Shown here: in pieces, positions 16,785-30,967 of the stretch
Numbering within the stretch: position 1 is the stretch's first letter
How the letters are laid out: the number at the start of each line of letters is the position of its first letter
Assembly: GCA_030602805.1 (NCBI GenBank)
Contig: JAUVZA010000003.1
Span: 1 to 43,795 of the forward strand
DNA: 43,795 nucleotides
Direction: 5' to 3'
Origin: Dehalococcoidia bacterium
GTDB taxonomy: Bacteria > Chloroflexota > Dehalococcoidia > Dehalococcoidales > JAUVZA01
The notes under the pieces: model-generated
What the model was told of the DNA's origin: nothing
The model's input: the letters and a program-made list of their open reading frames with translations, nothing else
The model's database searches: none
Made by a program: the position numbers and the translations under genes

Positions 16785-17483
16785 ATGAAAGCAGCCCTAT
16801 ACGCTAGAGTCTCAACAACAGACAAAGACCAAAACACAGAGGTCCAGCTATCGAAACTCCGGGACTACTGCCATGAGATGGATTGGATTGTTTACCGGGA
16901 GTATGTTGATGAAGCCTCGGCTGCTGACTTCTTGGGAAGAGTAGGCTGGAAACACCTGATGAAGGACGCCGCTCTACACAGGTTTGATGTGTTGCTCGTC
17001 TGGAAAATAGACCGTGCCTTCCGCTCCGTTATTCATGCCGCCAATACCCTAAGCATGTTAAGGGGTTACCGGGTGGGCTTTCGGAGTTACATGGAGCCAT
17101 CTATTGATACCACCACTCCCCATGGCGAATTTATCTTTAATATTATGGCGGCAGTGGCCGCACTGGGGAGGCAGACGATAAGTCAGCGAGTCCGGGCTGG
17201 GATGGACTATGCAAAGCGGCACGGAACCAAGTCGGGCAATAAGATTGGTCGGAAAAGATACGATGTGCCCTTTACAATCGTTTGTAAAGCCCTCCAGGCT
17301 TGCTGTGGCAATTATTCGGCAGCGGCAAGGCGGATATTTGAAGAGACCAGGATAAAAGTTAGCCCGGGGTTTGTGCAGACAAGGGTGCAGCGGGAGGATG
17401 AAACGCTGGAGGATATTTTGGGCCAGCCTTTGCAAAGCCTCGCCCCAAAATCGGGGCAAAAACAGCTAGCAAAGGAGGGCTGA
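16785..17483 (+). CDS. Serine recombinase (resolvase/invertase family)
   Basis: KAALYARVSTTDKDQNTEVQLSKLRDYC; FDVLLVWKIDRAFRS; FNIMAAVAALGRQTISQRVRAGMDYAKRHG. Confidence 0.92.
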   Translation: MKAALYARVSTTDKDQNTEVQLSKLRDYCHEMDWIVYREYVDEASAADFLGRVGWKHLMKDAALHRFDVLLVWKIDRAFRSVIHAANTLSMLRGYRVGFRSYMEPSIDTTTPHGEFIFNIMAAVAALGRQTISQRVRAGMDYAKRHGTKSGNKIGRKRYDVPFTIVCKALQACCGNYSAAARRIFEETRIKVSPGFVQTRVQREDETLEDILGQPLQSLAPKSGQKQLAKEG

Positions 17484-17597
17484 GGAAAGACGTTTGCAAA
17501 CCAGGTCTTTTGTGAAGAGGGAACTCGGAGCAAGTACGGCTGGACATATAAGGGAGAATTAAGACCAAAGAGGAAAGAGCGAGGATAAGGTTTCAAA

Positions 17598-18230
17598 ATG
17601 ACACAAGTTAGCCCGATACGCGACCTTAAAGGATACCTTGAACCCGAGCAGGTGGAGAGGGTGCTTGCCACTGCCACCAGTCCCAGGGACGCGCTGCTTG
17701 TCCGCATCCCGTGGCGAACCGGCATCAGGGTGTCAGAACTCATCGGGATAAGGGTTCAGGACATAGACTTCGAGGGCAGAGCTGTCTTGATTAAAATCCA
17801 AAAGCAGAGAAAGAGAGATGGCAAAACGGTCGAAAGAAGAAGGCTCGTCCCTATTGACCGGGACACCTTGGGCATGGTGAGGGAGTACCTGAAGTGGCGA
17901 GCGCAGTTTCCCTACAAGGGTGACCTTTTATTCCCCATTTCACGCCAAAGGGTTGCCCAAGTTTATTGGAAATTGGGAAGAAGAGCAGGGATAAAGGAGA
18001 TAGGTGACCCAGCAGTCTCCAAGCATAGGAAATTGCATCCGCATGTGCTTCGCCACAGCTTCGCCATCCACTGTGTGAAACATGGTATGTCAATTGAGCG
18101 ATTACAGAAAATCTTGGGGCACTCAAGCCCCACGACCACTTCAGTCTACTTGCAATACTCCTTGAAGGACCTCCATGAGTCCTATGACGAAGTTTGGGAA
18201 GAAGATGAAAGAGAAGAGACCAAGGATTAA
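17598..18230 (+). CDS. Tyrosine recombinase, catalytic domain only
   Basis: RTGIRVSELIGIRVQDID; HPHVLRHSFAIHCVKHGMSIERLQKILGHSSPTTTSVYLQYS (R, HxxR, H, Y); no N-terminal core-binding domain. Confidence 0.9.
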   Translation: MTQVSPIRDLKGYLEPEQVERVLATATSPRDALLVRIPWRTGIRVSELIGIRVQDIDFEGRAVLIKIQKQRKRDGKTVERRRLVPIDRDTLGMVREYLKWRAQFPYKGDLLFPISRQRVAQVYWKLGRRAGIKEIGDPAVSKHRKLHPHVLRHSFAIHCVKHGMSIERLQKILGHSSPTTTSVYLQYSLKDLHESYDEVWEEDEREETKD

Positions 18231-18893: not shown

Positions 18894-20063
18894 TCACACA
18901 TTGCCAATTTGTTTTTTCAGCCTATCCGCCATTAGACCTATATTTAGATCAGGCACCCCTAACCGACCAAAATACCGAGTAAAACGAGCGATCAGCGCTT
19001 CAGCATAAGGGCTATCTAAAGATGCAATGCGTTCTAATTTTCCCTGCTCTTTTAGCGAATTGAATTCGTCTAAAGTAATAGCCATTAGTTGTTGAAAGTC
19101 AACGACCATATCCGGCAGGTCTATTACGCCTGGGAGAAACTTAAATCTTTCTGGTTGCTTGCCTTCTCTGTTGTCATTTAGTAGGCTCTTGATTTTTCCT
19201 TTCGCTTTTTGATCCCCTGGATTTTGTGCCAATTCAACATATTCTGGTTGTTCACTTAGGAGCGAACAACGAGCAAATAACATCCACTCCGCTTTCCCCT
19301 TGTCGATGTCACATGACGGCGTCAGCAAGACGGTATATTCAATTTGGTCATCAATTGTCTTGGAAAATATATCACCTGTCGTAGGCTCTGCGCTTATCGA
19401 TGGAATTATGTAATACATCATTGGATGCACATTATCTTCGCCGCACCAAACTCCCGTTGTGTCGCCTAATTCTTCTGCTAATTGTTGTATTCCCGGACCA
19501 TCTAAAGATTTTGCTAGTCGCCTCGCCAGCAAATAGGCAAGTGAGGTGCGGTCAGGGGTGTCACCGAATTTCTCCCAATTGCGAGCTACAAAGTCCCACA
19601 TGTAGTCACGCTGTACTTCCTTCACGTGTCTTAAAAGTGCTCGATTCACTAGCGGTATTCTAGTTGAGAGAATTTCCTTTACTATCGATACAACTTTTGG
19701 TAATCCTTCCGTATTTTCAAGAACTTGTATTAACGGTGTTTCCAAATGTCTGACCTTTTGCGGTAGACCAGTGTAGAATATAACAGGTATAAAACATCTG
19801 GCTTTGATCGATTCAAGTACTTTTATGCCTTCCTCTTCTTCTCGTTCTTCTTCATGTGGTCCAAGTCTTACATCTAAAACGACAAAGTCAAAGTGACCGG
19901 ATTCCAATCTATCCAATGCCTTATCAAAGTCAACTTCTGTAGTGACTCTCAATTTCTCACCCGGCTCTGAAACAACTTGTTCATTCAGGTATTTGTCCGC
20001 CAGCTCACAGTTCTCAGCATTATCGTCAACAAATAACAGATACCAGTAATTTTCTTCCGCCAC
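18894..20063 (-). CDS. Receiver-domain protein with unknown C-terminal domain
   Basis: YWYLLFVDDNAENCELADKYL; HFDFVVLDVRLGPHEEEREEEEGIKVLESIKARCFIPVIFYTG; C-terminal EYTVLLTPSCDIDKGKAEWMLFARCSLL. Confidence 0.8.
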   Translation of the reverse strand: MAEENYWYLLFVDDNAENCELADKYLNEQVVSEPGEKLRVTTEVDFDKALDRLESGHFDFVVLDVRLGPHEEEREEEEGIKVLESIKARCFIPVIFYTGLPQKVRHLETPLIQVLENTEGLPKVVSIVKEILSTRIPLVNRALLRHVKEVQRDYMWDFVARNWEKFGDTPDRTSLAYLLARRLAKSLDGPGIQQLAEELGDTTGVWCGEDNVHPMMYYIIPSISAEPTTGDIFSKTIDDQIEYTVLLTPSCDIDKGKAEWMLFARCSLLSEQPEYVELAQNPGDQKAKGKIKSLLNDNREGKQPERFKFLPGVIDLPDMVVDFQQLMAITLDEFNSLKEQGKLERIASLDSPYAEALIARFTRYFGRLGVPDLNIGLMADRLKKQIGNV

Positions 20064-20064
20064 T

Positions 20065-22236
20065 TCATATTCTCCTGCGAAGAATAATCCTAAATGTTGT
20101 TCCAGGTAATGGGCCTTCTTTTATCAATGCCATAGTTCCGTCATAATAATCGCTAACTATTTCTCCGGCAATTGTCAATCCCAACCCGATTCCATTGGGC
20201 TTGGTTGAGAAATATGGATCAAAAATCATATCTTGATATTCTTCTTCAATGCCAGGCCCACTGTCTGAAAAAATTATCTCCAGTTCATATTCTTCTTTCC
20301 TGTTTATCTTAACGGTGATGAATCTTGAATCCTTCGGAACCTGCTTAAGCCAGTAAAGACTGTTGTTCAATAAGTTAACAATAACTTCTTGTATTTCAGC
20401 CTGATCTACAGTCACCTCTGTATATGTCGATGGCAGATCGACTTCTGCTCCCACCTGTTCAATTTCTTTTTCTAATACGGAGAAAGCGTTATAAATTACA
20501 TTCTCTAATGATATCCTCTCAGGTCTCCCGCGCCGGCGACCCCCAAAGGGTTCTATTTTACGGAATAGCGTCGCCAGTACGTCTGACTGAGTTGATATTG
20601 CTTTGAAGTGACCCCTCAATTGCCTTACTATTTTCTTACCGTTCTCATATATTTGATTAATATCTTGCCTTGCTACATGTGTAACATTAATAATCTTAGA
20701 AAGAGGTAATCGACCCTCGTGAAGCACAGTATCAATCAACATACCAAGAGTTGCCAACCTCCGATATCTAGAGATAATCTCTTCTGCTTCCCCAACCCTT
20801 TTTTCTAAATCTTTTTCCTTTTTCTTTACCGCGTCTAAGAGTTCTGTATCTCTGGGATGCTTTGTCGTTACGTATTCCCTAATGCTTGCCAGATTAAAGT
20901 CTACGAAGAGACCCCTCTCTGCCATTTTCTTTTTCTTAGGTCTTTCCTGCCATCTTCTGTTTTCCAATAACGCGATCATTAACGTGACCAGATATTTGAA
21001 ATCCTCGAATGCTTCCCCTTCCATAAGGCCTTCTCTGTTGCTCTGGTCACGTAATAATGGATTATCTTTAGATGTAACAAATATAGAACCAATTATTTGG
21101 TTATTAGAGAGATTTCTTGTAGGACGTAGAAAACGCCTGTAATCAAGTCGTAGCCAGTCTTCACGTGGTTGCCCGTATGGCAATACTCTAAAACCATCCC
21201 GGTATATACTTATTCCTGATGCAAAATCTAGATAGCGACGTATCTCAGCAACGGTGAATTCATTTCCTGACACTGCGTTCAAAGATGCTATATCGCGGTT
21301 CCAGACACGAAGCTCTATTTCAAAAGGACCACATTTTGGCAACCTCCCATCACCCATGGAGAAATGCCCCTCTTTTTTCTCTTCTATCCCCTTTTCCCTG
21401 AATTGCAGTGATAGATTATAATTACCTTTCGCGTCTACCTCTCCCCTTAATATGTAATGGGGTCTCTTGACTATTTCTGGTGGTTTAATTGTTTCAGAAT
21501 ATTCTTGAAAAGCTTCAGGCAGTTTTAGAAATATTTGAAAATCTTCCTTTAACGTATAATCCAATTCACCGAATGATGGTGAGATTAGTCTTGACAATCC
21601 ATTCTGTAAACTTTCAAATTGTGGTTTACCCCAGGCCGTCTTTAGCCCTCGCATTCTTAATATAGTACCGTAATCTAATTCATTCTTATCCAACTTCTTT
21701 GATTTATCCCATAATCCCTCAATAACACCACCGGGATATATTTCCTTTGGTTTACTCTGTTCCCACATAACCTCTATCTGGTCAAGGAATTTTTCTTCAT
21801 CATCAAACTGATTCCAATCGAATGTGACCCTTGTTTCACTATCCGTGCCAGATCGTCTGGTTATTACTTCCAGTTTTTCAGCTAATCTTGATGAAGCAAA
21901 TCTGCCGATTCCTTTTTCACCAAGTACACGGCGACTGAACTTCTCACTAAACCTGCTCCTTTTCCTCATTAATGTTGCTGGTTCCATCCAGGTTGTTCTG
22001 ATAGTTTCTAAATCCATACCATGGCCGTTGTCTATTACCTCTATCATACCCTTACCGATTTCAAGAGGCTCATGAAAGTAGACCCAGACTCGTGTGGCAT
22101 CTGCGTCATACGCGTTTTTAACTAGCTCAATTACGGCGACTGTCTCACTACTGATAAGTTCATCGCCAAAAGTACGTAAGAGCCTCGCCCTCGGCCTTAA
22201 TTTACTTACCCCTGAACCCTTTTCTATATCTGCCAT
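20065..22236 (-). CDS. Dual-ATPase protein: N-terminal MORC/HSP90-type ATPase plus C-terminal histidine-kinase core
   Basis: N-term AVIELVKNAYDADATRVWVYF, IEVIDNGHGMD, LGEKGIGRFASSRLA; C-term LGMLIDTVLHEGRLPLSKI, VIVNLLNNSLYWL, IIFSDSGPGIEEEYQDMIFDPYFSTKPNGIGLGLTIAGEIV. Confidence 0.88.
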   Translation of the reverse strand: MADIEKGSGVSKLRPRARLLRTFGDELISSETVAVIELVKNAYDADATRVWVYFHEPLEIGKGMIEVIDNGHGMDLETIRTTWMEPATLMRKRSRFSEKFSRRVLGEKGIGRFASSRLAEKLEVITRRSGTDSETRVTFDWNQFDDEEKFLDQIEVMWEQSKPKEIYPGGVIEGLWDKSKKLDKNELDYGTILRMRGLKTAWGKPQFESLQNGLSRLISPSFGELDYTLKEDFQIFLKLPEAFQEYSETIKPPEIVKRPHYILRGEVDAKGNYNLSLQFREKGIEEKKEGHFSMGDGRLPKCGPFEIELRVWNRDIASLNAVSGNEFTVAEIRRYLDFASGISIYRDGFRVLPYGQPREDWLRLDYRRFLRPTRNLSNNQIIGSIFVTSKDNPLLRDQSNREGLMEGEAFEDFKYLVTLMIALLENRRWQERPKKKKMAERGLFVDFNLASIREYVTTKHPRDTELLDAVKKKEKDLEKRVGEAEEIISRYRRLATLGMLIDTVLHEGRLPLSKIINVTHVARQDINQIYENGKKIVRQLRGHFKAISTQSDVLATLFRKIEPFGGRRRGRPERISLENVIYNAFSVLEKEIEQVGAEVDLPSTYTEVTVDQAEIQEVIVNLLNNSLYWLKQVPKDSRFITVKINRKEEYELEIIFSDSGPGIEEEYQDMIFDPYFSTKPNGIGLGLTIAGEIVSDYYDGTMALIKEGPLPGTTFRIILRRRI

Positions 22237-22271
22237 TACGCTACCCCGACGATTGTTTTCCCTCGTTTTAT

Positions 22272-22922
22272 TTATCTTTCAGTATTGTATGAACAAATAT
22301 TACTTAAAGGACATTCATTACATTTTGGCTCTTCTTTTTTTGTACATACCTGATCGGCCAAATCTAGAAGTGCAGAATTATAAACCCCTGGTTCCTCAGG
22401 ATCAACGAGTTCAGCTGCCAGTTCTTTGAATTTAGAATTACGCCTTAAAGAATCTTTTATTTCCATGTTATATATGCGACCAATTACCCTTACCGTATTT
22501 GTGTCTCTCAAAGGTTCTGCCATATTCCATGCAAAGCATCTAACACTACACGCGATATAATCGCTAATACCTGGTAGAGACAACAGCTCACTCTTATCCT
22601 TAGGAATTTTAGATCCATACTTATTTACGAGCATCTCTGCCATATCCTTGATAAGGTTAACACGCCATTTAAGACCCAGTGTAAATAATCCCTTATGCAA
22701 TTCAGATTTGCTGGCTCTTGCTAGGGTCTTTATGTCAGGATATTTTCTAATAAAACTTTCGTATATTCTAGCTACCTGTACAGCCTGTGTACGGTGTAGC
22801 ATTATCTCTGCCAATAGAACTTTATAGGGTTCCTGAGTCCTCCTCCATGGGAAGTCGCGGTAATTTCCTCTCCCCCATTTCTTGACCTTCGTCCGATATT
22901 CCCCTATCTTTGTCGCATCCAT
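22272..22922 (-). CDS. HhH-GPD Fe-S DNA glycosylase, Mig-like (T:G mismatch thymine glycosylase candidate)
   Basis: RDFPWRRTQEPYKVLLAEIMLHRTQA, LPGISDYIACSV, DTNTVRVIGRIY, Cys cluster CTKKEEPKCNECPLSNIC. Confidence 0.85.
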   Translation of the reverse strand: MDATKIGEYRTKVKKWGRGNYRDFPWRRTQEPYKVLLAEIMLHRTQAVQVARIYESFIRKYPDIKTLARASKSELHKGLFTLGLKWRVNLIKDMAEMLVNKYGSKIPKDKSELLSLPGISDYIACSVRCFAWNMAEPLRDTNTVRVIGRIYNMEIKDSLRRNSKFKELAAELVDPEEPGVYNSALLDLADQVCTKKEEPKCNECPLSNICSYNTER

Positions 22923-22923
22923 G

Positions 22924-23880
22924 TTATCGATCCACTTTACTAATTGCTCTAACTATAGATTTCATTACTGGCGGACAAACCGCATTTCCCATTAGCTTCA
23001 CTTTTTCCCGTCGTGTACCTACCTCCAATCGGTACGTTGTAGGGAAACCCATAGCTACTTTTAATTCTTCCGGTTGAAGCATCCTCATCATATAACCCAT
23101 ATCAGTGGGTTTTACAAACGCAAATCTATCAATAGTGGTAACAGTTCTAAGAGGCCTATCAATGGGTTGCCATCCTCCACTCCCATCCGTACCATAGTAA
23201 ACAATCAAGAATGATTCTTCTGCTCCTAGAGAACTGATAGCCCTTTCTGCACGTTGAATTGTGGCTACAGCTCTTTTCGGAGAATACAGAGGCGTATAGC
23301 CATAATTACCATTTAGGTCGATAATTGAACAGGCCGGTTGTAACTCTTTTCTTTGTTTCTTCACGCAACCGATCTCCCCTATCCGTGAACAGAGTAAAAA
23401 AAGCCTTCTTCTTGATTGTGGCACACCAAAGTCTTGAGCATTTAATATCTCTTCCCGCACATAGTAGCCTAAATTCTGTAGCTCTTCTACCAGTTCCCAG
23501 TGTCTATCCCATGACCTCATTTGTATTACGTTTTCAATAACAACCCATCTGGGCATAAATTCCTTGGTGAATCTTATTACTTGAAATGCCGTCATTTTAC
23601 TATTTTCACATCTGGCACGTGCACCTCTTGCACAACTATGATTTGTGCATTCCGGCGAAGCAAGTATTAGATCAATATCTCCAATAACTTCATGAAGCCT
23701 CTTTGGAGATATCTTTCTGATATTCTCATTAATCATTTCCGTTCCAGGGAAATTTCTAGAATAGGATAAAGACGCGATATTCCAATTATCAATTGCGGCG
23801 ACTATTTTAGCGCCAGCCATTTTTGCCCCGATACTACTCCCGCCGGCACCATGAAATAAATCCAGAGCCCTAATCCTCAT
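22924..23880 (-). CDS. DNA (cytosine-5) methyltransferase with PEC catalytic motif
   Basis: ALDLFHGAGGSSIGAKMAG (motif I), LASPECTNHS (IV), VVIENV (VI), DFGVPQSRRRLFLL (VIII), LMGNAVCPPV (X). Confidence 0.93.
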   Translation of the reverse strand: MRIRALDLFHGAGGSSIGAKMAGAKIVAAIDNWNIASLSYSRNFPGTEMINENIRKISPKRLHEVIGDIDLILASPECTNHSCARGARARCENSKMTAFQVIRFTKEFMPRWVVIENVIQMRSWDRHWELVEELQNLGYYVREEILNAQDFGVPQSRRRLFLLCSRIGEIGCVKKQRKELQPACSIIDLNGNYGYTPLYSPKRAVATIQRAERAISSLGAEESFLIVYYGTDGSGGWQPIDRPLRTVTTIDRFAFVKPTDMGYMMRMLQPEELKVAMGFPTTYRLEVGTRREKVKLMGNAVCPPVMKSIVRAISKVDR

Positions 23881-24406
23881 AAGACGGTTCCTTATTGAAG
23901 ATCAATTCTGCCATTTCTAAATTCTTTTTGCTTAGCGGCAAATACCAAGCATTCATCCTTCTATCCCATGCCCTTATCCTGACAAAGTCACCCCAAGGAT
24001 ATCTATAAATGGCGAATAACCGGTAATTTGCATCTAGCTTGGCCACGACGAGGTATTCGAATAATTGTTTATCCCTATCCTTTTCGTCCGGATAGACTGT
24101 CCCGGTCTTTTTCGCTTTCATAACGGTTTTTATCGAATATCTCTCCCCATCCCTCGACAGTGCATCAACATTCTTTGCACCAACTGGTGCTTGAAGCAGA
24201 TTCGGCAGTCCAGGTTTTGAATTGAAGAACGATATCACGAGCTTTTCACCAACTTCTCCCACCTTAAACAAGATACCACGCCTATTCAATTCTGTTTCTA
24301 TGTTAGCTCTTAAGATCACCAATTCATCGTTATTTAACTTTCTTAGATCAGCAAATGGGCCTCTGTTCATTTCTCTATCACTGCTACTTCTAAATTTAAT
24401 GGCCAT
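23870..24406 (-). CDS. Putative restriction endonuclease (PD-(D/E)XK-like)
   Basis: GEVGEKLVISFFNSK...GAKNVDALSRDGERYSIKTVMKAKKTGT resembles E...VDA...xIK; start at M24 of the 24475 ORF overlaps the HTH stop. Confidence 0.65.
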   Translation of the reverse strand: MAIKFRSSSDREMNRGPFADLRKLNNDELVILRANIETELNRRGILFKVGEVGEKLVISFFNSKPGLPNLLQAPVGAKNVDALSRDGERYSIKTVMKAKKTGTVYPDEKDRDKQLFEYLVVAKLDANYRLFAIYRYPWGDFVRIRAWDRRMNAWYLPLSKKNLEMAELIFNKEPSYED

Positions 24407-24650
24407 GTGGATTAGCTTCTTGGCTGCTTCTGGCTGTATCCCCCGTAAGCTCGTAGTGCCATCCATGATCGTCATGCACTGAGCGAATCTTATAACCGCG
24501 TCGTTTTAGTTCCGCAACAATACGTTGCGCCGTTGGACGTGACACATCTAAAGCAATCGCAAGCTTTCGTGTATTCATAGGACTGCTAGCAATCAGCTCA
24601 CCTGCTTTGCTAATACGTTGTTCGATGCGATGAGTGCGTTCGTATGGCAT
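24396..24650 (-). CDS. HTH regulator, first gene of the RM-like operon
   Basis: RIEQRISKAGELIASSPMNTRKLAIALDVSRPTAQRIVAELKRRGYKIRSV. Confidence 0.75.
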   Translation of the reverse strand: MPYERTHRIEQRISKAGELIASSPMNTRKLAIALDVSRPTAQRIVAELKRRGYKIRSVHDDHGWHYELTGDTARSSQEANPHGH

Positions 24651-24907
24651 CCTTTTTTGCCCTCATACTTTTGACACAATTATAACCAGAATCATTGATA
24701 TATGTCAATCAACTTGTGATATAATTTACTCAATTAGCGATGGGGTTTTGGTCAGTTATAAGAAAGCGACCTACTTTATAGGGTGCCTTTCTTTTTTAAA
24801 CTTAAATCGCACAAAATGACGGAATGTTACCCTCCTTGTTCTCATTCTAATCCGGCTGATGTATAATATGACTGACTCGATAAAGTAGCGAAGGCTGGGA
24901 AGCACAC

Positions 24908-26821
24908 ATGGCAAAAGGAAAGCAGGGAGGCTTGGGTGACGAGCTGTTAGGCACAAGATTCGGTGAGTTGCGTGATGCCTCCGGTCCAACTAAAGGTGAA
25001 TTTGTCCCACCACCTGATGTATCCAGCACAGAGGAAATAGAAGAAGCTCTTCCTGAGCAAGAAGAGTTCTGGCGCCCCCCAGCTCGTTTTGGAACAGTAC
25101 CCGTAGAAGCAAACCCGTTGGGCTGGGATTCACGCCGTGGATATTATAAGCTATACCCACAAGTAATGCTGCCTACTCAGGTTGTGGAGCGTGTTAGCTT
25201 TGGACATCCTGCGCTAGAGCCTAACCGCCTCTTCTGGGGAGACAACCTTCATGTAATGCGCCAACTTCCCTCCCAAAGTATTGACCTCATCTATATAGAC
25301 CCTCCATTCTTCTCCGGTATGCAATATAATGTTATTTTCGGCGACCAGAATGAGTTACGTTCTTTTAGTGATATTTGGGAAGGGGGGATGCCAGGTTATC
25401 TAATCTGGCTGAATGCCAGACTATATGAAATGAAACGTCTGTTGAAGAAAACCGGTTCCATCTATATCCATCTAGATTGGCACGCCTCCCATTACGTTAA
25501 GCAAGAGATGGATAAAATATTCGGATATGGCAATTTTAGAAATGAGGTTGTGTGGACATACACTAGACCCGGAACAGCAGCACAGAAGCAGTTGCCCAGA
25601 ACACATGATGTTATTCTTTGGTATTCGAAAAGCAACGTATGGAAGTTTAACACCCAGCATATACGCATTCCGTATGCGGATTCGACCGTATCCAGGGGAC
25701 AATACTCTATTGCTACGAGTAAAGTCACTAAGGGCATCGAAAAGAGGGTACTGAATGAGAAGGGCAAAGTTCCGGAAGATTGGTGGCATATTCCGATGAT
25801 ACAAGGCAATGCAAGGGAGCGGCTTGGTTACCCTACTCAGAAACCAGAGGCTCTACTTGAAAGAATCATTCACGCATCATCAGAAGAAGGGCACGTCATT
25901 GCTGACTTTTTCTGTGGTGGAGGCACGACTCCTGCGGTAGCTCAAAGATTGGGCCGCCACTGGATAGCTTGTGACCAGTCCCGTGTTGCAGTCGCCATTA
26001 CTGCTGACAGGATATCCGGTATAGTTGAACAGATGCCTCTAGAGCAGGCCGGTAAGACATTTACCGTCCCAGACTTCACCGTTGAGCACTGGGGCATATA
26101 CGAAGCAAAGCGGCTCTCGGAGACCCCGCCAGACCAGTTTCGTCAATTCGTCCTTCGCGCCTATGGAGCAGTGCCTGATAACTCCGAGCTAGGCATCCAC
26201 GGGCATAAGGGTGCTATCCCAGTATGGGTTGGCGAGCCTTCTCAGAAATCGCAGGTTTCCGCGCAAGATGTAGTGAACTTTGCTAACGCCGTGCGTAAGA
26301 CGGTTCGCTACCAACAGGATAATCTCCGTGACGGCACTATGCTTGCTTGGGCCTTCCGCCCCGATGCAATGCAGGCAGCACAGCAACTCCGTGAACAGGA
26401 AGCCACCGACCTGAACTTTATCCGCCTTGATATGGTTCGTATTGACTCCCCCACGTTCCGTGAACATGTCAACGTTCTCTCCACTGACAAGGCGGACTAT
26501 AGCACCTTTCTGACATTCGTACTGCCACCGAGAGTTGAGGTTGGCTGGAAAAAGCTGACCGGGCTAACGTACCGCTTTGATGTAAGCGAAACTATTGTGC
26601 TGAATGCTGGTAGCAAAATAATCAATGTCCAGTGGGACTTCAACTACCAGGGTGTATTCACCAGTACCCAGGGCTTTTCTTTCATTCGCACTACTTCGAA
26701 AGAGCCTACCCTACAGGTTGATTATACTTTCCCAACGTCAGGACGCTATCACATCGCCTGTAAAGTGCAGGATGATGTTGGGGGTGAGGGGTTATGGACA
26801 GGGTATATAGAGGTCAAGTAG
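24908..26821 (+). CDS. Type III-like N6-adenine DNA methyltransferase with extended C-terminus including a PKD-like domain
   Basis: LIYIDPPFFSGMQYN (DPPF), DFFCGGGTTPAVAQRLGRHWIACD; C-term KIINVQWDFNYQG...YTFPTSGRYHIACKVQDDVGGEGLWTGYIEV. Confidence 0.9.
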   Translation: MAKGKQGGLGDELLGTRFGELRDASGPTKGEFVPPPDVSSTEEIEEALPEQEEFWRPPARFGTVPVEANPLGWDSRRGYYKLYPQVMLPTQVVERVSFGHPALEPNRLFWGDNLHVMRQLPSQSIDLIYIDPPFFSGMQYNVIFGDQNELRSFSDIWEGGMPGYLIWLNARLYEMKRLLKKTGSIYIHLDWHASHYVKQEMDKIFGYGNFRNEVVWTYTRPGTAAQKQLPRTHDVILWYSKSNVWKFNTQHIRIPYADSTVSRGQYSIATSKVTKGIEKRVLNEKGKVPEDWWHIPMIQGNARERLGYPTQKPEALLERIIHASSEEGHVIADFFCGGGTTPAVAQRLGRHWIACDQSRVAVAITADRISGIVEQMPLEQAGKTFTVPDFTVEHWGIYEAKRLSETPPDQFRQFVLRAYGAVPDNSELGIHGHKGAIPVWVGEPSQKSQVSAQDVVNFANAVRKTVRYQQDNLRDGTMLAWAFRPDAMQAAQQLREQEATDLNFIRLDMVRIDSPTFREHVNVLSTDKADYSTFLTFVLPPRVEVGWKKLTGLTYRFDVSETIVLNAGSKIINVQWDFNYQGVFTSTQGFSFIRTTSKEPTLQVDYTFPTSGRYHIACKVQDDVGGEGLWTGYIEVK

Positions 26822-26824
26822 CCA

Positions 26825-28846
26825 ATGTTCAACGAATTTGCCAGATATGAAGAAGATTTCAAGGCGTGGTGCCAGGACGGTTACCCTACCGACTTTGCCA
26901 CCACATATCGCTACATTGATTTCCTCAGTGACCCAACTAATGACCAAGCACCGCGAGAGGGCACCTTATGGCTCCATCAGTGGGAGGCCTTCCTCAGAGT
27001 TGTTTATTCCTATGAGGTGTTGGGGAAGAAGACTATTGGAGAGCATGGTCTGCTGCTGAACATTGTGACCGGTGGTGGTAAAACAGCAGACATTGCTGCC
27101 ATTATAGCCTGGTTACGCATCTCTCATGGGGGGCAAAAATTTCTAATGCTTTGCCCCAATCTCATCGTGCGCGACCGCTTAGAAGAAGATTTTGAAAAAG
27201 GTAAGGTATTCAAAGACCGAGACCTGTTGCCAGATTGGTCAAATGCTCGACCCCAGGATTTTGATCTGACTACTCTTGGTGGCGGCAAAAGCAGTGGTTG
27301 GGCAAGTTTCTTGGGTGCCAGTATAGTTCTTGGCAATATCCATCAGTTCTACCAAAGCAATATAGCAGGTAGGAGTAATTTGTCAGCGCTTATGAATGGG
27401 CCAGATTTTGTCCTGTTCAACGATGAAGCCCACAATTCCCCAGCGGAAGAGTACACAACCACACTGCAGCGTATCGAAAAGAAGGTGTTGCTACGTATAG
27501 ACACTACGGCTACACCCGACCGTGCTGATGGTAGAGCCCCTGACAGCGACATGATCTACGAATATGACGTCAATGATGCCTTGGCAGATGGTCTTATCGC
27601 GACGCCGGTAGTTTATCAGCCAGACATCAAGACTGTAGAGCTCACCTATACCGATGCCCTGACTGGAGTCACTAAAAGAGTCGAAGAGATTGATTGGGAG
27701 GAGGTCGATCGCAAGGGTCTCAGTGCTACACAGTGGGTAACCGATGACAAACCAATGCGTCAGCAGATGGCAATCGCCCTTAAGCGTCTTCAAGAGCAGG
27801 AGATGAGGGCAAAGGGGCGTTACCAACCCATCCTGTTCGTCGTTGCCGTATGCAAGAAGGATGCGATAAAAGCGGAAAATACACTCTCCAAAATCTTTAA
27901 GGTCAAAACATTGCTAGTGACTGAGGACAGCCCCGAAGTGGATAGAAAGAGTGCACGTGAGTTGGGGCGTCAGCAGAAGACAAAAGACCCATTTAAGGCA
28001 GTAGTTAGCGTCCTTATGTTACGGGAAGGCTGGGACGTTCCAGAGGTGGGCGTTATCCTGCTCCTTCGTAAATTTAGCAGTAAGGTATACGGCCAACAAG
28101 TTGTTGGGCGTGGGCTGCGCCGAGTTCGTACCAAAGGCATATTACCTGAAGAGCCACAGATTTGTGCCGTCGTTGATCACCCCAAGCTGGAGCATTACTG
28201 GTTATGGGATATTTTTAATTGTAAGATCCGTCCAAATGTTACTACGGAGCAGATGTTTGACGAGGCTGAAGATTTACCACCACCGCCACCACGACAGGAT
28301 ATTTCTCGTCCCGAGTTTGTGATTGATGTTCCGAAAGAAATTGAAGGGCTTGTCGATGAAGGTGAATTTGAAGTGGGCGAGATTGAGCTAACCGAGCCCA
28401 TTGAGAATTGGGAAGAAGTACTTGCATCTCTTGAGTATAGTGGAGAGACAGTCGAGATAACCGACCAAAAAATTACAGGAGTTACCGGCAAGGAGTTAAT
28501 CCCCAAGGGGTGGAAGACAATTCACAGTGCCCCGGACTTGCCGCCGAAAGACAATGGTACACAAGTAGAAGATACTGATGATAACATGCGGGAAGCCATA
28601 AAGAACCGGGTACTGGAGCTTGCTGAGGAACTGTGTGTTAATTCCGGTTATGCTGCGGGTTTTCGTGGTGAAGTGTACAGTGCTCTGATGCAGCACGTCA
28701 GGGGAAAATTCCTTGACAACATGACTCTAGGTCTAGCTGACCGGCGTGGTCTCGATTATGCCTGGAAGATGTTGTACCAAGTGAAAGTTAAGGTTACTGC
28801 AGTACCGGGACTTGTCGGAGGGATAATAGAATATGCCAATAAGTAA
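26825..28846 (+). CDS. DEAD/DEAH-box helicase, Type III Res-like, no recognisable nuclease domain
   Basis: LLLNIVTGGGKTADIAAI (Walker A), VLFNDEAHNSP, RIDTTATPDR, VVSVLMLREGWDVPEVGVILLLR, GQQVVGRGLRRV. Confidence 0.9.
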   Translation: MFNEFARYEEDFKAWCQDGYPTDFATTYRYIDFLSDPTNDQAPREGTLWLHQWEAFLRVVYSYEVLGKKTIGEHGLLLNIVTGGGKTADIAAIIAWLRISHGGQKFLMLCPNLIVRDRLEEDFEKGKVFKDRDLLPDWSNARPQDFDLTTLGGGKSSGWASFLGASIVLGNIHQFYQSNIAGRSNLSALMNGPDFVLFNDEAHNSPAEEYTTTLQRIEKKVLLRIDTTATPDRADGRAPDSDMIYEYDVNDALADGLIATPVVYQPDIKTVELTYTDALTGVTKRVEEIDWEEVDRKGLSATQWVTDDKPMRQQMAIALKRLQEQEMRAKGRYQPILFVVAVCKKDAIKAENTLSKIFKVKTLLVTEDSPEVDRKSARELGRQQKTKDPFKAVVSVLMLREGWDVPEVGVILLLRKFSSKVYGQQVVGRGLRRVRTKGILPEEPQICAVVDHPKLEHYWLWDIFNCKIRPNVTTEQMFDEAEDLPPPPPRQDISRPEFVIDVPKEIEGLVDEGEFEVGEIELTEPIENWEEVLASLEYSGETVEITDQKITGVTGKELIPKGWKTIHSAPDLPPKDNGTQVEDTDDNMREAIKNRVLELAEELCVNSGYAAGFRGEVYSALMQHVRGKFLDNMTLGLADRRGLDYAWKMLYQVKVKVTAVPGLVGGIIEYANK

Positions 28847-29183
28847 ACACGACATCTACTGGGAACCTAAAAAGAGCCCGTATAATTTTGAAAAATATGA
28901 TAGTAGACTTGAATCTTGGATGATGGAGAAACTCGATGATGACCCTACAGTGGTAAAATGGATGAAGAGACATGGGATTAGCATCCCCTGGATTGATGTG
29001 CAGAAACATCAACGCCGCTATGTGCCTGATTTCATTGTTGAATATATTGACGGTAACAAATCAATTCTCGAAGTAAAAGACCCTAGTAGAGTAGATTCTG
29101 ATGAAGTGAAGCGGAAGAGGAAAGCTGCTGAGATGTGGTGTAAAAAACGGGGAATGTCATATGTTGTTGCCACAGTGGAGTAA
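28833..29183 (+). CDS. Small PD-(D/E)XK nuclease
   Basis: 116 aa; HQRRYVPDFIVEYIDGNKSILEVKDPSR; overlaps the helicase by 14 nt. Confidence 0.8.
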   Translation: MPISKHDIYWEPKKSPYNFEKYDSRLESWMMEKLDDDPTVVKWMKRHGISIPWIDVQKHQRRYVPDFIVEYIDGNKSILEVKDPSRVDSDEVKRKRKAAEMWCKKRGMSYVVATVE

Positions 29184-29300: not shown

Positions 29301-29915
29301 TTAGGGCTCCAATGCTTCGAAGAGAGTATGTCCCCTTAGGCTATTATAAAGTGCGCTGACTTCCTTGTTGATGGTTCTATTCTCCTTATCCAGTGCTTTC
29401 TTTTGTCCGTAGAGCCACAGATATTTGTCGAGGTCCTCCCAGGGTACGGAAGCAAGTCCTACCTGATCGCGGAATGCCTTGATAGCCTCAAAAAACTTCG
29501 TGTAGCTAGGAAAACTGAATCCGCGCTTTTGTAGCTGTGCCATAGCAGCCACAGCAAATGAGTCGAATATGGGGAAAGCAGTCTTATTATGAAAGTGAGC
29601 ATATTTACTGGCGAAGGAAATATAATAATGGTCATCCTTAGCTATGAGTTCAACTGCTTCTACTTCCCCTGCCATTAGTTGTGCATCAAGCCTGTGTAAC
29701 GCCAGTATATGCCTCGCCATTCGTAACGGCTCTCTGATACCGGCAAAATAAAGGCTGTTTACCAGAACCACCTTAGTAACCACACTGTACTCTTTCATGT
29801 TGTCTGGGTGGTCTTGGAGATAGGAGGCTATGACCTCATTTGCCAGCTTCCAGCCACCAAGCCTTTCATAGAGTTGTTTTGCCGCCTTGATGTTTCGTAG
29901 CCCGGGTGGTGTCAT
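29301..29915 (-). CDS. Hypothetical protein paired with the PGN_0703-like nuclease
   Basis: 204 aa; YYISFASKYAHFHNKTAFPIFDSFAV; start overlaps the stop of the upstream gene by 4 nt. Confidence 0.6.
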   Translation of the reverse strand: MTPPGLRNIKAAKQLYERLGGWKLANEVIASYLQDHPDNMKEYSVVTKVVLVNSLYFAGIREPLRMARHILALHRLDAQLMAGEVEAVELIAKDDHYYISFASKYAHFHNKTAFPIFDSFAVAAMAQLQKRGFSFPSYTKFFEAIKAFRDQVGLASVPWEDLDKYLWLYGQKKALDKENRTINKEVSALYNSLRGHTLFEALEP

Positions 29916-30967
29916 TGACTCTCTCTCCTTCCTTGTTGAAAGAGTTCCCTAACAGGTTTACCTCTGCTTACCTCCTTCCAGCCGTACCGTGTCCTGAGGT
30001 AGTCTATCCACTCCCAGTTGTTGGCCTCTACCCGCTGTGCGATGATATCAAGTAGGTCCTCGACTGAGATGCTCATAAACTTGTCTTTGGGCACCAGCTC
30101 TTTCCAGATTTCGAGCACACCTTTGTTGGGGAACATCTGGTCCAACTTAGGTGAAGTTACCCGCTCTCTGAATTCCTTATTAGCCTCGGGACAGATATAA
30201 AGCACACTCACCACATCAGCTCCCATCTCCTGACCATATTCCATTTCTTGGGCAAGCAATTGAAGGCGCATGAGTTGATAGAACGGATCAAAGAATAGGG
30301 CATCATAAAAATCTACGTCCCGTCGCTTGAAGACCCCGCCCTCCCTGTTGAAAGCCTGCTGATAGTTATGTTTCCTGACCTCAATGCCCTTATCTAATCT
30401 GCGATATTCTTCCGTATATTTCCATTCTCCAAGGACTATTTGTATTTTCCCATCCTTTCTTCTAAACCGGAAGATAAAGTCAGCACTGGTAAAATTTGCT
30501 CCCCGAGTTCGTTTTGATCCTTTGCGCCTGGTTTCGCCCAGATAGTCGCGAACACCAATCCACTCGAAAGCCAAATACTGAAATGAACCATTCGGAGGAG
30601 GTTTATCTTCATCGATTAGAAGCGGCTCTGCCAGACTCCGATAGAAATGTTGGAAGACATTAGCAAGTATCTTTGAGCTGGTTGTCATTGGGTATAGGAA
30701 ATTTATACAGCATGACTGAGAACAGCATAGGTGATTACTGGGTACGTGCCGTTCTTTGAGACCATCGTGCCAAGTGATATTTCGAGCCCTAAAGTACTCA
30801 ATTGCAGATGCCCTGATGGCTTCGTAAAGATTTTCGCTAGAACAGTCATCAGCAAGACAAAAGGAGTGGGGCCGCCCACGATAGTTACCTTCGCCTTGGG
30901 CTGCAGGGCTAAACAGCTTCGGCTTAAGCTTCTTGTATCTCTCCTTTTCTCTATCTCTAAAGGTCAT
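29912..30967 (-). CDS. Putative restriction endonuclease, PGN_0703-like
   Basis: CCSQSCCINFLYP; FTSADFIFRFRRKDGKIQIVLGEWKYTEEY (ADFIF ... GEWK nuclease-like motif). Confidence 0.65.
   Translation of the reverse strand: MTFRDREKERYKKLKPKLFSPAAQGEGNYRGRPHSFCLADDCSSENLYEAIRASAIEYFRARNITWHDGLKERHVPSNHLCCSQSCCINFLYPMTTSSKILANVFQHFYRSLAEPLLIDEDKPPPNGSFQYLAFEWIGVRDYLGETRRKGSKRTRGANFTSADFIFRFRRKDGKIQIVLGEWKYTEEYRRLDKGIEVRKHNYQQAFNREGGVFKRRDVDFYDALFFDPFYQLMRLQLLAQEMEYGQEMGADVVSVLYICPEANKEFRERVTSPKLDQMFPNKGVLEIWKELVPKDKFMSISVEDLLDIIAQRVEANNWEWIDYLRTRYGWKEVSRGKPVRELFQQGRRESQ

Follow-up and report, generated by a model that had tools for sequence, protein, structure and literature searches.

MORC-type ATPases reportedly occur in restriction–modification (R-M) neighborhoods, in the paraMORC R-M systems that Iyer, Abhiman and Aravind are said to have described in 2008 (as cited in PMC8011034 and PMC12137116). 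Here we analyzed a 43,795-nt stretch of DNA from a Dehalococcoidia bacterium (contig JAUVZA010000003.1; referred to as the window), in which six open reading frames (ORFs), all on the minus strand and running from 24650 to 18894, encode a winged-helix protein, a nuclease, a DNA C5-cytosine methyltransferase, a thymine-DNA glycosylase, a MORC-type kinase and a receiver protein. In contrast to paraMORC R-M, the window carries its MORC domain within a histidine kinase that has a dedicated receiver.

A two-component-like kinase/receiver pair, HEF_HK (PF19191) and Response_reg_2 (PF19192), has been described beside a C5-methyltransferase and Vsr (Bellieny-Rabelo et al. 2021, PMC8011034). The window pair is like it in the order HATPase_c_3, DHp histidine and HATPase_c, in the adjacent receiver, in the C5-methyltransferase and V gene nearby, and in being soluble and widespread. 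The window kinase has no match to PF19191 at E 0.1 (4/56 members of its family match at E 0.01), and the window receiver has none to PF19192 (1/67 of its family), its only match being PF00072 (2e-4). We therefore regard the pair as a variant of the published one, not a member. It further differs in the MazF-fold domain of the receiver, the Mig-type V gene and the BisI-type nuclease; PMC8011034 makes no mention of a glycosylase, MazF or PemK. A first-pass annotation of the window had recognized no named system in the six-gene set, which holds with respect to PF19191 and PF19192, but the association of kinase, receiver and C5-methyltransferase was already published in 2021 (PMC8011034).

The methyltransferase subfamily is also common to DISARM (as DrmMII) and MZA (MORC-Z1-AIPR), the latter having a MORC ATPase as well. 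Unlike DISARM, the window operon and its scanned neighbors contain no DrmA, DrmB or DrmC, and unlike MZA, the operon contains no Z1 or AIPR gene. We propose, with a probability of roughly 0.4, that the locus is a defense operon that marks DNA with 5-methylcytosine (5mC), and in which a 5mC-reading nuclease is controlled by the kinase/receiver relay.

BisI- and AspBHI-type nucleases beside one methyltransferase subfamily

Scanning genomes with the kinase yielded 80 loci, which span many phyla and include two archaea; the window makes 81. The receiver adjoins the kinase in 77/81 loci, so the two are co-conserved and the loci are not plain two-gene R-M systems. A C5-methyltransferase lies at most 8 kb from the kinase in 69/81. 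The conserved unit is not the six-gene set of the first-pass annotation. It consists of methyltransferase, kinase and receiver, to which a repair gene of the V type is usually added; the nuclease and the helix-turn-helix (HTH) gene vary. The same operon type is present in a second Dehalococcoidia genome (G319).

The window methyltransferase (22924..23880, minus strand; 318 aa) matches PF00145 (2e-44) and the PADLOC DrmMII profile PDLC02654 (9e-101). Methyltransferases near kinases split by similarity to it into two classes, at 264 bits or more and at 141 bits or less. A BisI- or AspBHI-type nuclease is present at 8/20 loci with a window-class methyltransferase, compared with 0/59 loci with other C5-methyltransferases (p = 4.8e-6; the loci are phylogenetically dependent, so this and the other Fisher p value given below are optimistic). 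The eight nuclease-linked loci (BisI-type, three; AspBHI-type, five) are from Chloroflexota, Verrucomicrobiota, Bacteroidota and Pseudomonadota. Two of them, L050 (Verrucomicrobiota) and L055 (Bacteroidota), contain a contiguous array of methyltransferase, kinase, receiver, nuclease and Vsr genes, with a methyltransferase of the window subtype and a BisI-type nuclease. As far as our searches reached, BisI- and AspBHI-type partners of C5-methyltransferase/kinase loci are new. In one locus, the AspBHI-type gene is split into two adjacent ORFs (L108:13723-15013), perhaps by a frameshift.

The window nuclease (23870..24475, minus strand; 201 aa in the longest ORF) was assigned to the BisI/Eco15I family. 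It matches the PADLOC profile mREase_II ("methyl-directed Type II", 1.5e-49) and Eco15I (8q5m; E 0.002 as a single sequence, 1.8e-4 with a family profile of eight sequences, a profile of three having missed it). The top eight fold matches are all Eco15I or NhoI, and serve as agreement only, the AlphaFold model from three sequences being poor (predicted local distance difference test score, pLDDT, 47). With the methyltransferase it forms part of the R-M-type core recognized in the first-pass annotation, with which the domain matches agree. The PD-(D/E)XK fold assigned there was correct, but the nuclease is not a generic one: the characterized enzymes of its family cleave DNA that contains 5mC, and not unmethylated DNA.

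BisI enzymes cut GCNGC containing two to four 5mC, and the inner methyl is read by an (H/R)(V/I/T/M) dyad (PMC11347163). Like the members of this family (Eco15I, NhoI), the window nuclease shows fold-wide homology, the catalytic Asp and Lys (active site NVDA...YSIK) and the dyad, here R173-M174, which is invariant in the nuclease family. In the profile alignment the dyad aligns with an Eco15I H-V pair, which is the published His139-Val140 only if an offset between chain and protein numbering is assumed. Unlike the BisI enzymes (PMC11347163), which are described as orphans, it is encoded together with a C5-methyltransferase, and the Gln of the family's QXK motif is replaced by Ser in 8/8 aligned members of this subfamily. 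The methyl-reading part is thus conserved, and 5mC-dependent cleavage, a trait of the family, may extend to the window enzyme. No relatives of the nuclease were found in phages or viral contigs. Sampling anchored on the methyltransferase covered plasmids, phages, viral contigs and Chloroflexota. An Exiguobacterium plasmid encodes a BisI-type nuclease (L201:7980-8498; 32-34% identity) with the same Gln-to-Ser change in a different context, without an annotated methyltransferase nearby.

The same Gln-to-Ser change bears on another reading, in which the locus is a Type II R-M system of conventional polarity, the BisI-derived nuclease cutting sites that lack the operon's own 5mC, and the kinase and receiver only tuning expression or activity. 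The nuclease sits in the place of an R gene beside M, and the related kinase/receiver pairs of PMC8011034 have common Type II endonucleases nearby (EcoRII-C, MvaI/BcnI, HNH). The nearest canonical enzyme is PvuII (PMC11347163), and some BisI homologs show relaxed activity on unmodified DNA (PMC8281217). Against this, the dyad is invariant as Arg-Met, and the second nuclease type found with the same methyltransferase subfamily also keeps its means of reading 5mC. The AspBHI-type enzymes retain the SRA-like pocket motif for a flipped 5mC, W-x-D...Y-(Y/N)-G-D-x-(R/K), of which D71, Y82 and D85 are required in AspBHI (PMC4499157). Two independent reversals would be needed, and we consider conventional polarity somewhat unlikely. 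AspBHI recognizes YS(5mC)NS (PMC4499157), a context that overlaps with the G5mCNGC of BisI.

The kinase/receiver relay

The kinase (20065..22236, minus strand; 723 aa) matches HATPase_c_3 (4e-23) and HATPase_c (4e-25) in Pfam. Its N-terminal part is a MORC-type GHKL ATPase; a DHp-like segment, in which an acidic residue comes after His506, and an HATPase_c domain of the kinase type make up the rest. This agrees with the first-pass annotation, in which the kinase also carries a MORC-type ATPase. In an alignment of 56 homologs, His506 and the core motif residues of both GHKL/ATP-binding domains are invariant. One homolog (L120:647-3250) contains an extra N-terminal EcoRII-N/B3 DNA-binding domain, a hint that such kinases sense specific DNA. 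The kinases of L080, L109 and L119 also have long extra N-terminal stretches, which match nothing in Pfam.

The receiver protein (18894..20063, minus strand; 389 aa, GTG start) matches Response_reg weakly as a single sequence and had no match in the PDB by phmmer, and its family profile matches ArlR-type receivers (2e-11), which identifies a receiver domain. The acidic pair Asp13/Asp14, Asp64 and Thr98 are present, and the conserved Lys/Arg position is occupied by Asn117. The only invariant columns in 67 homologs are the phospho-acceptor Asp64 and Cys251 of an LTPxCD motif in the C-terminal domain. Foldseek searches with a model of mean pLDDT 93 gave matches to receivers and, for this domain, to MazF (1ub4_A, 5ck9_B, 5ckf_B; E 2e-4 to 6e-4, probability 1.00), suggesting a MazF-like β-barrel. 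By sequence there was no match of the domain to PemK/MazF (PF02452; hhalign profile–profile probability 3%), and the RP.LV.S-type motif is not conserved. An active MazF toxin was rejected at the sequence level, as MazF-type motifs are absent, and for the domain we claim only a MazF-like fold, predicted from the model. A MazF-fold output domain on a receiver of this type appears to be new within the reach of our searches.

The fold matches and the invariance of Cys251 together with Asp64 would suit a scheme in which the domain is the main effector, an RNase-type toxin that phosphorylation releases to cause abortive infection, while the R-M genes serve as sensor or safeguard. Given the absence of the PemK/MazF motif and the PemK probability of 3%, we regard this scheme as very unlikely.

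Under relay control, as we propose it, the C5-methyltransferase would mark host DNA with 5mC, and the glycosylase would repair the T:G mismatches that arise from 5mC deamination, the part that Vsr usually plays as a V gene. The MORC-kinase, a soluble protein, would act as a DNA-sensing ATPase clamp whose His506 donates a phosphoryl group to receiver Asp64; once phosphorylated, the receiver would license the defense response via its MazF-fold output domain. Under this control the nuclease, a member of a 5mC-dependent family, would spare DNA that the cell itself has marked. We place this reading at the top, as an operon that encodes both a writer and a reader of 5mC needs a brake, and the remaining constant component is the relay. 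The idea in the first-pass annotation, that the MORC-kinase senses unmethylated or damaged DNA and thereby gates the nuclease, is a possible form of the signal. An inverted-polarity R-M system under a phosphorelay, in which the relay restrains the 5mC nuclease until a phage signal releases it and marked DNA, including that of the host, is destroyed, seems unlikely.

Several points weigh against relay control, beyond the phylogenetic dependence of the loci. Self-conflict between writer and reader is presumed, and depends on the target sequence of the methyltransferase. Among the 67 receivers, only that of the window has Asn where a Lys/Arg is conserved, which may affect signaling by this copy. 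Some loci lack the relay, which keeps the reading below even odds. On a Thalassospira plasmid (L236:1-8978), an AspBHI-type nuclease and a window-class (DrmMII-like) methyltransferase lie beside MZA genes, and on rhizobial plasmids BisI-type nucleases lie beside another C5-methyltransferase, Vsr and MORC/Z1 genes; the kinase/receiver pair is absent from both. The pair is thus not the sole possible gate, and MORC/Z1 genes may replace the relay at these loci.

The plasmid loci also agree with a two-sided policing of DNA, in which the methyltransferase sets the host pattern, DNA without the pattern is attacked by another arm (MZA, DISARM or MORC-kinase/receiver), and the nuclease acts independently on dense foreign 5mC. 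The nuclease would then run ungated, since its target is something other than the host mark. BisI requires two to four 5mC in GCNGC, of which known host methyltransferases are expected to place at most two (PMC11347163). Association at kinase loci with one methyltransferase subtype, and not with C5-methyltransferases generally, suggests instead a matched specificity, and we consider this arrangement improbable. What the nuclease cuts may be DNA with the operon's own mark, subject to the relay, DNA with foreign 5mC at higher density, or, if the polarity is reversed, DNA without the mark.

Vsr and a Mig-type glycosylase in the V slot

The window glycosylase (22272..22922, minus strand; 216 aa) occupies the V-gene slot. 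It matches HhH-GPD (5e-10) and PDLC03398 (7e-40), and its top PDB match is Mig (1kea, 1.2e-38). Like Mig.MthTI, it has a helix-hairpin-helix (HhH-GPD) domain with an iron–sulfur (FeS) cluster and the catalytic Asp, and lacks the MutY C-terminal domain; E42, Y126, D144 and four FeS Cys residues are retained. Of the Mig specificity pair Ala50/Leu187, Ala50 is retained and Leu187 is replaced by Ser; PMC2714593 deals with the MutY counterparts of these positions. The glycosylase fills the same operon role as Vsr. Compared with Mig.MthTI and Vsr, the V genes of C5 R-M systems, it has this Ser in place of the Mig Leu187, is linked to a kinase and receiver, and is fused to the methyltransferase in two relatives.

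Among the 81 loci, the V slot contains Vsr in 41, a Mig-type glycosylase in eight and both in none (Fisher p = 0.0024); neither is present in 32, in some cases owing to contig ends. One further glycosylase match (L059) was excluded from the counts, being 6.3 kb away, on the opposite strand and of another type. Mapping the glycosylase onto the kinase tree required six changes, at least five of them forced by well-supported branches, indicating that it was swapped repeatedly.

Methyltransferase and glycosylase form a single ORF in L054 (identical to L034) and in L047. In a Chloroflexota DISARM operon (L239:954-9354), a Mig-type glycosylase gene lies between DrmMII and DrmA and overlaps the end of DrmMII. 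The fusions and this overlap indicate that the glycosylase belongs with the methyltransferase, as the repair role predicts. That the glycosylase is suited to the repair of deaminated 5mC, as the first-pass annotation had it, is supported by its Mig-like character and its alternation with Vsr. We found the alternation and the fusions with the methyltransferase described nowhere within our searches.

Operon layout, neighboring genes and significance

The six closely spaced ORFs form one operon, as originally annotated. The spacings reported then are correct for nuclease/methyltransferase (-11 nt) and for the following junctions (+1, +35 and +1 nt). That between the HTH gene and the nuclease varies with the nuclease start, for which there are three in-frame candidates: -80 nt for the longest ORF, -11 for Met24, to which the annotated value is confined, and +25 for Met36. 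The real start is probably Met36 (24370) or Met24 (24406); homologs begin near Met36, favoring the latest of the three. A sigma-70-like promoter sequence, TTGACA-18-TATAAT (24679..24708, minus strand), lies 29 nt 5' of the first start codon. It is a consensus match only (12/12), and the sole perfect site in 6.4 kb, in which promoter-like matches in total are no more frequent than expected by chance.

The first gene (24396..24650, minus strand; 84 aa) encodes a probable operon regulator with matches to HVO_A0261_N (5e-7) and HTH_11 (9e-5), both below the cut-offs. No homolog of it was found at the other loci, where XRE or CopG genes occupy its place. The earlier assignment as a controller-like HTH protein was rejected, as the fold is a winged helix (HTH_11/HVO_A0261_N-like) and not that of an XRE-type controller (C) protein.

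Just past the receiver end of the operon are genes for a serine resolvase and a tyrosine integrase (16785-18230, plus strand). Divergent from the HTH gene is a three-gene split R-M system (24908-29183, plus strand), comprising an N6/N4 methyltransferase, a ResIII-type helicase and a TnsA-like nuclease, with BPTD_3080-like halves encoded by separate genes. Beyond it (29301-30967, minus strand) are a REase-ARP family nuclease (PF22558, 2e-37) and an overlapping gene for a 204-aa partner of no assigned family. The resolvase and integrase genes and the split R-M system indicate that the region is a defense island, which is probably mobile.

With such genes adjoining the operon, its members could be accidental neighbors in the island without a joint function. 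The overlapping genes, the fusions and the adjacency conserved across many phyla make this highly improbable, and a plain chance neighborhood is rejected by the receiver and nuclease counts given above.

5mC-dependent nucleases have been described as orphans, as a methyltransferase that places 5mC would expose the cell to its own nuclease. Here, nucleases from two unrelated families of this kind recur together with one C5-methyltransferase subfamily, mostly beside a conserved kinase/receiver relay, which is a paradox on that account. The role of MORC-kinases in R-M loci becomes a direct question, namely whether the relay decides when a methyl-reading nuclease cuts. Vsr and the Mig-type glycosylase are interchangeable parts, the latter capable of fusion with the methyltransferase. 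Between DISARM, MZA and MORC-kinase systems there is exchange of the methyltransferase, the repair gene and the nuclease.

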